The notes beneath the pieces are model-generated. The model was not told where the DNA came from, did no database searches, and worked only from the letters and a program-made list of their open reading frames with translations. From positions 1 to 33,793 of the forward strand of contig VGEM01000004.1 in assembly GCA_016869315.1 (NCBI GenBank): a stretch of 33,793 nt of DNA. Reading direction: 5' to 3'. This document shows positions 11,763 through 22,596 of this stretch, one piece after another. Within the stretch, counting starts at the first letter, position 1; the number at the start of each line of letters is the position of its first letter. The translations under genes and the position numbers were made by a program. The stretch comes from Alphaproteobacteria bacterium. GTDB taxonomy: Bacteria > Pseudomonadota > Alphaproteobacteria > Rhodospirillales > Rhodospirillaceae.

Positions 11763-12731
11763 CTACTTGCTGACTTTGACGCGCTGTGTCTGACGCAAAT
11801 CCTGGTCCATGGCGCCCGCGAGAAAAGCGCGGATGTCCGGGATCACGCGATCGGGCGCCTCGACATAGGGGTAATGCCCGAGGCCTTCGTACTTCTTGGT
11901 CAGCGTCGGCGCTGAGGTTATCCAATGCTCGAACACGTCGGCTTCGAGATGCATGACTGTCGGGTTGGCCATGCCCCACATGATCAGCGTTGGCGCCGTG
12001 ATCCCCGATAGAATCGATTTGGTGTCGCCCGTCGCGAACCGGTACTTCGTATCGGGCGTGGTGTCGCCGCGGCGGCCGATGTCGTAGGCAAGATCCAAAA
12101 ACCAGTCGGGCGGCGGCGCCGCCGGAAAATTCTTGCCAACCGTGTAAGCCCAGTACTCCCGCGGTTTGATCGGCATCGCATTCCAATGCGCGGTGTCGGG
12201 TCGGTCGCGGTTTGGGTCGGTCTGCGCCGTGCGCGGCATGCCCGCCGAATTGATCAGCACGAGGCGGCTCACCTTCGAAGGAAAGCGAGAGGCATAGCGG
12301 AAACCGACACTGCCGCCGCTGGAGGTCGCGATCAGCGCGAAACGGTCCAGCTTAAGCGCGTCGACCAAACCGGCCAGCACCTCGACGTTGCGTTCGATCA
12401 GGTTGAACGTGCCGCCGGGCGGTTCCTTGGTTTCGGGGCCGCTCAGCCCAACGTTGGGAAAGTCGAGGCGAATGACGCGGTAATTCGGCCGCAACGCGTC
12501 CGCGACCGCGCGCCAGGATTCTAAGTTGAAATAGGAAGCGTGCAGGAGTACGACCACCGGACCCTGGCCTTCGTCGCGCATGTGAATCTCGGCGCCATCG
12601 ATCGTGACGTATCGCGAGCCAGCGTCGGCATGTTTGGCCCGGAGATCCTTGAGGCTGATTCGGCCGGGGTCTTGCGCCTGGGTTGGCACCGCCATGATCA
12701 GCGCGGCCAGCGTCAGAAGATTGGCTTTCAT
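11763..12731 (-). CDS. Exported alpha/beta-fold hydrolase
   Basis: 322 residues with a signal peptide (MKANLLTLAALIMAVPTQA, then QDP), so periplasmic or secreted. The fold is clear: GPVVVLLHASYFNLESW (oxyanion strand with HA in place of HG), RVIRLDFPNVGLSG, then the nucleophile elbow ATSSGG around residues 135-140 with Ser137 as the likely nucleophile (Ala replaces the usual first Gly). APTLIMWGMANP is the acid strand region, and GLGHYPYVEAPD carries the catalytic His near the C-terminus. The triad therefore looks intact. Substrate unknown; relatives include esterases, C-C hydrolases and haloperoxidase-like proteins. It sits between the cytochrome c and cytochrome b561 genes, with the b561 gene upstream on the same strand separated by a hairpin. 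Confidence 0.88.
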   Translation of the reverse strand: MKANLLTLAALIMAVPTQAQDPGRISLKDLRAKHADAGSRYVTIDGAEIHMRDEGQGPVVVLLHASYFNLESWRAVADALRPNYRVIRLDFPNVGLSGPETKEPPGGTFNLIERNVEVLAGLVDALKLDRFALIATSSGGSVGFRYASRFPSKVSRLVLINSAGMPRTAQTDPNRDRPDTAHWNAMPIKPREYWAYTVGKNFPAAPPPDWFLDLAYDIGRRGDTTPDTKYRFATGDTKSILSGITAPTLIMWGMANPTVMHLEADVFEHWITSAPTLTKKYEGLGHYPYVEAPDRVIPDIRAFLAGAMDQDLRQTQRVKVSK

Positions 12732-17113: not shown

Positions 17114-19282
<2,169 letters not shown>

Positions 19283-19393: not shown

Positions 19394-21121
19394 ATGATTG
19401 CGCGCCGCAGCCTGATCGCCAACGTCGCCGGCCTTGTTGCCGCGCCACAGATCGCGAACGCCGAGGATCAGCTCGATCGTGACACCACCGGGTTTCCGCT
19501 CGACGCTGCGGCGCTCGATCTTCTCAAGTGGTGGACCACGCCGAAGGGCGTCCAACGTGCCTATCTCGGCGATCCGGGTCGGCAAGTGCATGTGCGCTGG
19601 GCTCAGCCCGATCGCCCGCGCCATCGGCCGCTTGTGTTGCTGCACGAGGGCGGCCTGTCGGGCCGCGTGTGGGATCACGCCCTACCGCTTCTTGCGGCGG
19701 CCCGATCGGTCATCGCACCCGATCTGCCGGCGCATGGGGACTCGGATGGCGACCCCGCCATCTCCGTCGAGGGTCACGCCGCGACAGTGATGCGCATGGC
19801 CGACCAGCTTGGGCTCGGCCGGTTCGATGTCGTCGGCGACGGTCTTGGCGCCCATGTGGCGCTGCTGTTGGCCGCGATGGTGCCGTCGCGCATCGGGCGA
19901 TTGATCCTGCTCGGCGTGCGGCCACAGCCGGGTACCCTCGCGCCGCGACCCGAACCGGCCAATCGTGAAGACACGGCGTTTCTCACCGCGGCCTGGTCGG
20001 CGTTTAACGCGGGATATGCCGACAAGACGCCGCTTGGCATTCGCGATCGCGACTTTGCCGACCTGCTTCGATCGCGCGCGCTGACACCGCGCCACGTCGG
20101 ATCGCTTTCGCTGGTGGGCGCGCTGTCGCAGCAAATCACTGCCATCACCGGAAGGGGCGAGGGCCAGGGCCTTTCTGAATTCTCCGACATCGATGCTCAG
20201 CCGTCCTGGACGCGCGACACGCCGACGTGGCGCGACAAAGAGTGGTCGGCGAAAATTCTCGCACACCTTGGCGGCGAACCCGCGGATGTGCGGCCAATCA
20301 AAAATCCCGACGCGCCCGCGCCAACTGGCGCGCTGGTGCGCCGTTTTGTCACCACACCGGCCGGGCAAATACATTACCGCATGATTGCCGGCGCCACCGC
20401 GGCGCCGCCGCTGTTGTGCTTTCACATGAGTCCGCGGTCGAGCGCGTACTACGAACAATTGATGTCGGCGTTGTCGGTGACCGGCCGGACGATTATTGCC
20501 GTCGATTCTGCTGGATATGGCGAGTCCTTCAAACCCCCAGCCTGGCTCGACGTGCCGGGCTATGCCGGGCACATGGCGGCGTTCATCGATGCGCTGGGCC
20601 TGCCGCAGGTCGACGTCATGGGCGATCATACCGGGGGAAAGATCGCGATCGCGACCGTTCGGGAGCGCCCCAAAGTCGTCCGCAAGGTCGTCATGAGCAC
20701 GGCTGGCGTCTATTCACTGGAAGAACAACGCGGCTGGCAAAAGCGGATGGAACTGATCCCGGTGCGCGACGACGGCGGGCACTACGCCGCCCTGTGGGCG
20801 CGCTATCACACGCTCAATCGCGGCAAGCTCGATTCCGACCAGAATGCCTTTCGCTTCTACGAAACCGTCCGCGCCGGGCCGTGCATGTGGTGGGGGCCGC
20901 GGGCGGCCAACCTGTACATCCTCGGCGACGTACTGCCGACAATCGACCACGAAATTCTTCTGGTCTGCTCGGACGAGGATTCATTGATCGAGCCCTCACG
21001 CCGCGGCGCCAAGCTGCTCAAGCGCGGCCGCTATGTCGAGTTTCCGGGGCAGGGCAATAGCATGGTCGAATACCGCGCCGCCGCGGTCGCGCCGACGGTC
21101 GCGGCGTTTCTGGCCGAGTGA
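19394..21121 (+). CDS. Exported tandem alpha/beta-hydrolase-fold protein lacking both serine nucleophiles
   Basis: 575 residues from ATG 19394 (CCGGAG upstream). The N-terminus MIARRSLIANVAGLVAAPQIANAED has a twin-arginine-like RRSLI and an ANA cleavage site, suggesting Tat export. Domain 1 (about 55-290): RPLVLLHEGGLSGRVWD, SVIAPDLPAHGDSDGD and elbow VVGDGLGAH, where Gly150 replaces the nucleophile. Domain 2 (about 315-575): PPLLCFHMSPRSSAYY, TIIAVDSAGYGESFKPP and elbow VMGDHTGGK, where His412 stands in the nucleophile position; near the end PGQGNSMVEY has Asn where GxGH would give the catalytic His. The fold is clear but the ordinary Ser-His-Asp triad is not. It may be a binding protein or use different chemistry. 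The stop is 11 bases from the convergent MocR-type gene. Confidence 0.85.
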   Translation: MIARRSLIANVAGLVAAPQIANAEDQLDRDTTGFPLDAAALDLLKWWTTPKGVQRAYLGDPGRQVHVRWAQPDRPRHRPLVLLHEGGLSGRVWDHALPLLAAARSVIAPDLPAHGDSDGDPAISVEGHAATVMRMADQLGLGRFDVVGDGLGAHVALLLAAMVPSRIGRLILLGVRPQPGTLAPRPEPANREDTAFLTAAWSAFNAGYADKTPLGIRDRDFADLLRSRALTPRHVGSLSLVGALSQQITAITGRGEGQGLSEFSDIDAQPSWTRDTPTWRDKEWSAKILAHLGGEPADVRPIKNPDAPAPTGALVRRFVTTPAGQIHYRMIAGATAAPPLLCFHMSPRSSAYYEQLMSALSVTGRTIIAVDSAGYGESFKPPAWLDVPGYAGHMAAFIDALGLPQVDVMGDHTGGKIAIATVRERPKVVRKVVMSTAGVYSLEEQRGWQKRMELIPVRDDGGHYAALWARYHTLNRGKLDSDQNAFRFYETVRAGPCMWWGPRAANLYILGDVLPTIDHEILLVCSDEDSLIEPSRRGAKLLKRGRYVEFPGQGNSMVEYRAAAVAPTVAAFLAE

Positions 21122-21132
21122 ATGCGCCGCAG

Positions 21133-22596
21133 TCATAGGGAGTGCAGCAGCGCTGCCAGTTTTTTCGCGGCCGGTCGCAAGGATTCCGGCGGAAATCCCG
21201 AGAACCCCAGCATCAAAGCCTGGCGCGGCGTTCCGGCAAGGTAGAGCCGGCTCATGGCGCGGACGATGATGCCGCTTTGGCGCGCGATCGGCTCCAGGCG
21301 AATATCGGATCGATGGCGCTTCAAGTAGGCGACCAGATGCAAGCCCTGATCGGGCACCCTGACATCGAGGAGGTCGTTCGCGTGCGCCTTCAAGGTGTCG
21401 GCGAGGGTGTCGCGCTGTTCGGCGTAGGCCGCACGGGTGCGTCGCAGGTGGGTGGCGAAGTGACCTTCGCTGATAAACGCCGTGACCATCGCCTGCGTGA
21501 GACTGGCGGGCTGACGGTCGGTCAGATAGCGCGTGCCGACCATGGCGGCGACCAGCTCCGGCGGCGCCACCAGATAGCCCATGCGCAGGCCCGGGAACAA
21601 AGCCTTATTCAAAGTGCCGACATAGATGACGCGTCCGGCATCATCGAGACCTTGCAGTGAGGATAGCGGCTTCCCCGAGTAGCGGTACTCGCTGACGTAG
21701 TCGTCCTCGATGATCCAGGATTTACGTTCGCGCGCCCAGGCCAACAGTTCGAGCCGCCGTGACAACGACATCACAACGCCGGTCGGAAACTGGTGCGATG
21801 GCGTGACGAACGCGGCGCGCGCCTTCGCTGCCCGGCGGATGCCTTCAGCGACGTCGATGCCATACGCATCGACCGCAATCGGTTTCAAGCGCACATGTGC
21901 CGCTTGGAGCGCGCGCGTCGTCAGCGGATAGCCGGGATCCTCGACCCACGCCTCGTCGCCGGGCCGCATCAGCACGCGGATGGCAAGATCGACCGCCTGC
22001 TGCGCGCCGGTGGTGACGATGACTTGATCAGGCTCGGCGCGGACACCCCGGGCGGTTCGGAGATACGTGCAGATGGCGGACCGTAAATCCGCGGCGCCGC
22101 GCGGGTCGGCATAGCCAAGATGGATCGGCCCGATGTCACGCACGGCCCGCTGCGTCAGCCGGCGCCAGACTTTGGCCGAGCGCGGATCGAGCAGCGTACG
22201 CCCGGTCGCGAACGGTCGATCGTCATGGGCTGTGGCGTGTTCGAGGAAGCCGTCGCGCAAGTGCGGCGGGACGTCGAATTTCACATCACTCTTGGATGGC
22301 CGGCGTCTGCGGCGCGTCAGATCGTGCGGAAGATCGTCGGCGACGTAGGTCCCGGATCCGACTTTTCCGGCGATGACATTCTCGGCCAGAAGCAGTTCGA
22401 AGGCGGTGACGATGACCGCGCGTGCGACCCCGACTGTTTCGGCGAGCCGGCGCGTCGATGGCAAACGGTCACCCGGGGAAATCGCGCCGTTGGCAATGGC
22501 GTCGCGAAGTTGCTGATACACCTGCCGGTACAACGGCACATCGCCGGTACGATCGACAATCCACGGATGATGATCGATCCACGACGCACGCGGCAT
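21133..22596 (-). CDS. MocR/PdxR-type regulator (GntR HTH fused to aminotransferase fold)
   Basis: 487 residues. Residues 20-88 are a winged-helix GntR domain (PLYRQVYQQLRDAIANGAISPGDRLPSTRRLAETVGVARAVIVTAFELL...GSGTYVAD). A basic linker (DLTRRRRRPSK) leads to a fold-type I aminotransferase domain from about 130. PLP contacts are visible: TGAQQAVDLA, PSHQFPTG (266-273), IIEDDYVSEYRY (Asp for the pyridine nitrogen) and Lys331 in GTLNKALFPGLRMGY, the expected Schiff-base lysine. Such proteins sense PLP or an amino-acid adduct and control vitamin B6 or amine metabolism genes. It diverges from a PNPOx-fold gene across 105 bases that carry two matching direct repeats, so that gene is its likely target together with its own promoter. 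Confidence 0.94.
   Translation of the reverse strand: MPRASWIDHHPWIVDRTGDVPLYRQVYQQLRDAIANGAISPGDRLPSTRRLAETVGVARAVIVTAFELLLAENVIAGKVGSGTYVADDLPHDLTRRRRRPSKSDVKFDVPPHLRDGFLEHATAHDDRPFATGRTLLDPRSAKVWRRLTQRAVRDIGPIHLGYADPRGAADLRSAICTYLRTARGVRAEPDQVIVTTGAQQAVDLAIRVLMRPGDEAWVEDPGYPLTTRALQAAHVRLKPIAVDAYGIDVAEGIRRAAKARAAFVTPSHQFPTGVVMSLSRRLELLAWARERKSWIIEDDYVSEYRYSGKPLSSLQGLDDAGRVIYVGTLNKALFPGLRMGYLVAPPELVAAMVGTRYLTDRQPASLTQAMVTAFISEGHFATHLRRTRAAYAEQRDTLADTLKAHANDLLDVRVPDQGLHLVAYLKRHRSDIRLEPIARQSGIIVRAMSRLYLAGTPRQALMLGFSGFPPESLRPAAKKLAALLHSL

Follow-up and report, generated by a model that had tools for sequence, protein, structure and literature searches.

In the alpha/beta-hydrolase fold, one of the largest among enzymes, the chemistry is set by the residue at the nucleophile elbow. 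Enzymes of the chloroperoxidase and aryl esterase group (1a88, 1zoi, 1va4) rely on a Ser-His-Asp triad, and haloalkane dehalogenases and epoxide hydrolases on an Asp nucleophile assisted by a His and an acid. Passages of a 2024 survey of the superfamily give Ser, Asp, Cys or no nucleophile, His being absent from them, and put on record members without catalytic residues or Ser, namely DUF687 and CGI-58 (PMC11878206). In parts of another report, the cofactor-free dioxygenases HOD and AqdC and the methylketone synthase MKS1 are described as using a His or a His-Asp general base, the nucleophile being dispensable (PMC10548524). An elbow-His class of this fold was not found in the literature searched by title and abstract start, mostly non-subscription, and the literal strings GHHTG, GYHTG, GFHTG and GDHTG gave no match on this fold at the same level of text. 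One candidate was set aside: the 'Ser to His' change in PMC7686037 affects a PET hydrolase at Ser185, and the passage does not present this residue as part of an elbow. Here we describe a protein with two alpha/beta-hydrolase domains, encoded in a 33,793-nucleotide stretch of alphaproteobacterial DNA (the window), whose elbows carry Gly and His.

Results

Anatomy of the two-domain protein

The ORF listed in Table 1 was confirmed as a real gene, and its GC content by codon position is similar to that of the neighboring genes. The product contains two PF00561 stretches, as expected from the double fold proposed in the initial annotation, and scores 88.6 bits against this profile, for a curated cut-off of 25.8 bits. 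Its N-terminus, MIARRSLIANVAGLVAAPQIANAED, combines a twin arginine with a hydrophobic stretch (recognized by eye and by one regular expression), suggesting that the protein is probably exported. Both flanking genes lie on the opposite strand: 17114–19282 (minus), presumably uvrB-like, and 21133–22596 (minus), which encodes a MocR/PdxR-type regulator (422.5 bits for a cut-off of 320). The residues at the sites of interest were verified by index: Gly150 lies in GDGLG, His412 in GDHTG and Asn555 in PGQGNSM.

Table 1. Features of the two-domain gene, in window coordinates
Feature	Position	Strand	Basis
Two-domain alpha/beta-hydrolase-fold protein, 575 aa	19394..21121, stop codon included	+	ORF, PF00561
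Putative twin-arginine export signal MIARRSLIANVAGLVAAPQIANAED	19394..19468	+	Sequence by eye, regular expression
Domain 1, N-terminal part kept, cap/acid/His part degenerate	19538..20302	+	Comparison with L001 domain 1
Domain 1 elbow GDGLG (Gly150)	19835..19849	+	Sequence, index check
Domain 2, elbow-His alpha/beta-hydrolase domain	20309..21118	+	Comparison with L001 domain 2, model
Domain 2 elbow GDHTG (His412)	20621..20635	+	Sequence, model, index check
Asp529 codon, acid position	20978..20980	+	Alignment
Asn555 codon, usual catalytic-His position	21056..21058	+	Alignment

In a profile alignment with chloroperoxidase L (1a88), the best PDB-sequence profile match among the matches listed, the columns of the elbow His, Asp529 and Asn555 correspond to Ser (in GHSTG), an Asp (in GTDDQ) and His (in PHGML) of that enzyme, respectively; we take these three residues to be the catalytic triad of 1a88. 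Asn at the position of the catalytic His of domain 2, already noticed in the initial annotation, is borne out by this alignment; domain 1 is unalignable in the same region. Neither elbow carries the Ser of serine hydrolases or the Asp of haloalkane dehalogenases and epoxide hydrolases, and domain 2 scores only 46.1 bits against one dehalogenase model (cut-off 241 bits) and 50.4 bits against a second model for these enzymes (cut-off 466 bits). Similarly, the whole protein remains below the PcaD cut-off (TIGR02427, 87.1 versus 255.85 bits).

The model of domain 2, built with seven domains in the alignment, has a pLDDT of 91.3 and a pTM of 0.90. It displays the strand–elbow–helix arrangement of the PF00561 fold: a strand spans model residues 101–106 and a helix starts at residue 107, which corresponds to His412, so that His412 sits at the elbow. 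VIA-align places esterases and chloroperoxidases first (Z close to 30, 18–21% identity for the best eight rows), and Foldseek ranks Cfl1 first, with a thermophilic esterase as well as dehalogenases and chloroperoxidases among its top rows. The full-length model, based on three sequences, is poor, with a mean pLDDT of 60.2 and values below 50 for segments 174–198, 208–283 and 294–311, located in the linker and toward the end of domain 1.

The elbow His as a family trait

A profile, referred to as A1, was built from domain 2 and 34 of the 47 relative domains that we gathered. Seven of the 13 domains left out lack an elbow His (L003:566, L005, L013, L016, L029 and the second domains of L028 and L031), and the profile therefore leans to His. 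All 35 members of A1 match PF00561 and all 35 match TIGR02427 at E ≤ 1e-5. Domain 2 has the HxSPxS loop, the GxHTG elbow and the acid that characterize the family; its A1 score of 303 bits is partly circular, as domain 2 is row 1 of the profile. Domain 1, with GDGLG at the elbow and no acid, scores 102 bits. In the best 60 of 206 profile matches to PDB sequences, with five alignments, no solved structure with an elbow His was seen. The window also encodes a Ser-type alpha/beta hydrolase with the elbow ATSSGG (11763–12731, minus), which scores 36.7 bits against A1 and lies outside the His family.

We then assembled 127 unique domains scoring above 150 bits, no two rows being 98% identical: 32 come from the own genome of the window and 95 from L001 and L032–L110, selected for their high similarity to the query or A1. 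The elbow residue is His in 119 of these domains, Ala in three, Gly in two, Phe in two and Arg in one, and it is followed by Thr in 113 of them. The acid position is occupied by Asp or Glu in 120 domains; a C-terminal His is present in 83 and a cap His in 66. With the cap His limited to these 66, a metal site made of several His finds no support as a family trait. The elbow His is found in 26 of the 32 own-genome domains and in 93 of the 95 others; the latter share is inflated and the former fairer, because the 95 domains were picked by similarity to His-elbow sequences.

The own genome (4.1 Mb in 577 contigs) contains 84 PF00561 matches, and the elbow was read in 75 domains matched by A1: 31 have His, 21 Ser and 17 another residue, the elbow being unreadable in six. 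Most of the Ser-elbow domains (18 out of 21) score 75 bits or less. Above 75 bits, 49 domains have a readable elbow, with His in 31, Ser in three and other residues in 15; the 75–150-bit range accounts for five of the His and for 12 other residues, including the three Ser. Ser at the elbow of homologues would have spoken against the initial annotation, which survives this count. The elbow-His trait is strong in the family core and patchy among remote relatives, and with His412 the protein conforms to what is common in an alpha/beta-hydrolase-fold family, which speaks against a chance or local loss. The initial statement that both nucleophiles are replaced is correct in that neither elbow carries Ser; that they were lost is only half right, the elbow His being the family norm.

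A single full-length homologue and the fate of domain 1

The only full-length homologue found is the first of three consecutive genes (585, 568 and 279 aa, L001:6001–10487) of a MAG titled Proteobacteria bacterium. Its identity with the query is 47% from end to end, and both of its halves have GDHTG. Together, the three genes encode five domains, which all have GDHTG and all lack a His at the C-terminal catalytic position. Domain 2 of the query is 63% identical to its L001 counterpart over 260 columns, with GDHTG, SDEDSLIEP and GNSM kept. For domain 1, the identity is 39% over 191 alignment columns, in the first part only; as judged from this alignment, the two first domains are related by descent. 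Domain 1 of the query combines Gly150 with the absence of the acid, a deletion and low pLDDT values, and its position in the tree, on a long branch, is unsure. Because the sole full-length homologue has GDHTG in both halves, domain 1 probably had an elbow His originally and lost it later, as it decayed, to give Gly150. The matched loss in both halves that had been put forward initially is not upheld, given the elbow His of 119 of the 127 domains and of both halves of this homologue; compared with this one homologue, Gly150 looks local.

The known copies of the fusion are those of the window and of L001, no further copy being found at E ≤ 1e-50 in the 73 genomes of the taxonomic family. Named genomes were scanned with six peptide patterns taken from the query, an approach that relatives can escape. 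After L001, the next best match to the query (2e-47) is a split paralogue from the own genome, L003 (C270:614–2209), a double-domain sequence with 31% identity over query residues 55–573. Its halves, whose elbows carry Gly and Arg, are separated by one in-frame TAG, an arrangement compatible with a split pair as well as with tandem genes.

Co-variation within the site

Of the 119 His-elbow domains, 117 retain the acid, versus three of the eight others (Fisher p = 4e-6, kinship ignored). An independent-pairs count for elbow His and acid yields three pairs whose branches are well supported, a number too small to give significance. There is no clear association of the elbow His with the C-terminal His (82/119 versus 3/8, p = 0.11, any His in four columns being counted) or with the cap His (p = 0.28). 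The minimum number of changes on the tree is ten for the C-terminal His, 15 for the cap His, five for the elbow His and four for the acid.

The occurrence of the C-terminal His follows the residue that precedes the elbow His: it is present in 72 of 75 domains with Tyr, 5 of 11 with Phe and 2 of 13 with His, and in none of those with Ser (0/8), Asp (0/6, or 0/7 when the Arg-elbow row is included) or Thr (0/3), a link that follows clades in part. Domain 2 of the query is of the Asp type. This tracking suggests one coordinated site, and we infer from the alignments that the variants would represent a single active site with an elbow His + acid core and an optional C-terminal His.

Paired genes, neighborhoods and distribution

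Adjacent same-strand family genes occur in 18 of the 40 loci that have a called family gene above 150 bits; ten of them (L072–L076 and L078–L082) look like one syntenic place, so that the 18 do not represent separate events. The neighboring family genes overlap by 4 bases in five of the 18 paired loci. Six ORFs of the own genome, including the query, contain two domains above 50 bits each. L028, L031 and L143 have an elbow His in the first domain and not in the second, the reverse of what the query shows; pairs in which one half is non-His are thus recurrent. At another own-genome locus (L138, C1:42515–45573), two adjacent two-domain proteins have the elbows GAATG, GNATG, GRYSG and GRYAG, so that all four halves are non-His and non-Ser (Ala and Tyr elbows).

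A twin arginine followed by a hydrophobic stretch was recognized by eye at the N-terminus of eight own-genome family ORFs (L003, L010, L012, L013, L015, L016, L021 and L145); the regular expression flagged only the query, L015 and, doubtfully, L005. Export may be common across the elbow-His family, as these N-termini would suggest.

The recurrent neighbors of family genes encode an FAD_binding_2 oxidoreductase, an NmrA-like NAD(P)-binding protein, an HsaA-like flavin monooxygenase (306 bits, under its cut-off of 450), a tannase/feruloyl-esterase family protein, a DUF3089 protein and a sodium:alanine symporter. These genes were called with a simple longest-ORF scheme, and most neighbor counts correspond to orthologous loci. 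Such mixed neighbors are compatible with the catabolism of ring compounds and name no substrate. In L073 and L075–L080, which belong to two genera (g17 and g18), the FAD_binding_2 oxidoreductase gene, the family genes, the NmrA-like gene and an rsmB-like gene stand together; L071, L072 and L074 contain part of this block.

At E ≤ 1e-45, A1 matches 31 of the 73 genomes of the taxonomic family, with up to at least 33 matches in one genome; these counts are lower bounds, with at most 34 candidates scored per genome. At E ≤ 1e-60, matches are found in nine genomes out of 248 from the order, every one of which belongs to this family (ten candidates scored per genome), and in one of 299 genomes of the phylum, the window's own (eight candidates scored per genome). 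Remoter elbow-His relatives were read on plasmids of Novosphingobium, Rhodococcus and Streptomyces, one plasmid per genus. The GHHTG protein of the Streptomyces plasmid adjoins an LLM-class flavin oxidoreductase (L040:5995–7820) and the Rhodococcus member a zinc-binding alcohol dehydrogenase family protein (L039:4964–6837). When viral contigs were scanned with the profile, 20 stretches were retrieved, none of which encodes a relative. Family members on four of the listed plasmid records are annotated just 'alpha/beta hydrolase'; routine annotation would therefore read them as esterases.

Discussion

The explanation that we favor, to which we give about an even chance as a whole, is that two domains of a Ser-less alpha/beta-hydrolase-fold family are fused here in a protein that is probably exported. 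Domain 2 would probably be a working enzyme relying on an elbow His-Asp dyad: His412 would serve as a general base or acid, activating water or deprotonating a substrate, and Asp529 would polarize His412 directly, in which case the usual C-terminal His would not be needed. Domain 1 would be a decayed copy that once had GDHTG at the elbow and now acts as a scaffold or partner.

Alternatively, both halves could be pseudoenzymes that bind a small ligand or a partner outside the cytoplasm, a rather unlikely reading to our mind. The absence of Ser from both elbows, the lack of a C-terminal His in domain 2 and the degeneracy of domain 1 are in line with it, and DUF687 and CGI-58, as presented in passages of the 2024 survey, provide precedents without catalytic residues or Ser (PMC11878206). 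However, binding needs no acid, and the acid is retained alongside nearly all elbow His, with co-variation of neighboring site residues; repeated duplication, up to at least 33 matches per genome, fits enzymes at least equally well. The initial annotation offered two readings: new chemistry using the elbow His, the better half, and non-hydrolytic binding, which fits domain 1 better than domain 2.

Two further readings keep domain 2 catalytic. If the elbow His replaced Ser as a covalent nucleophile, through an acyl- or phospho-histidine intermediate, its location would be accounted for: it stands at the nucleophile place of the fold and precedes a Thr-Gly that chloroperoxidase L also has, in GHSTG, and the usual oxyanion-hole loop retains H344, P347 and S349. 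Yet imidazole is larger than Ser, this loop reads H-x-S-P and not H-G, and no precedent for the fold was found in the literature searched, which makes this mechanism improbable. We consider it more doubtful still that the protein is an ordinary hydrolase acting through another Ser or an alternative triad: the fold and the nearest solved structures are those of plain esterases, chloroperoxidases and related enzymes, but there is no elbow Ser here and Ser is found in only three of the 49 own-genome domains above 75 bits whose elbow is readable.

Returning to the dyad enzyme with a decayed partner, we tentatively propose, at somewhat less than even chance, that a bacterial lineage moved the key catalytic His to the nucleophile elbow. 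The resulting class, elbow His + acid with an optional C-terminal His, would join the classes defined by Ser, Asp, Cys or no nucleophile, with tens of paralogues per genome, many of them paired and some forming fused pairs with a pseudo-domain half. The number of matches per genome provides many natural variants.

The protein is ordinary as a fold and unusual as a catalytic class. Domain 2 shares its fold with the chloroperoxidase and aryl esterase group, as well as the Thr-Gly that follows the elbow, but their elbow residue is Ser whereas domain 2 has His there, and Asn555. Haloalkane dehalogenases and epoxide hydrolases, among which a variant of Cfl1 (7jqx) is the top row of Foldseek, share the fold and a non-Ser elbow with domain 2, the residue being Asp in their case and His in ours. 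The fold is likewise common to PcaD and the C–C hydrolases (2xua, 2og1, CarC and DxnB2), which use a Ser nucleophile. Finally, the base of HOD is the triad His, H251; domain 2 has Asn at this position and carries its His at the elbow instead.
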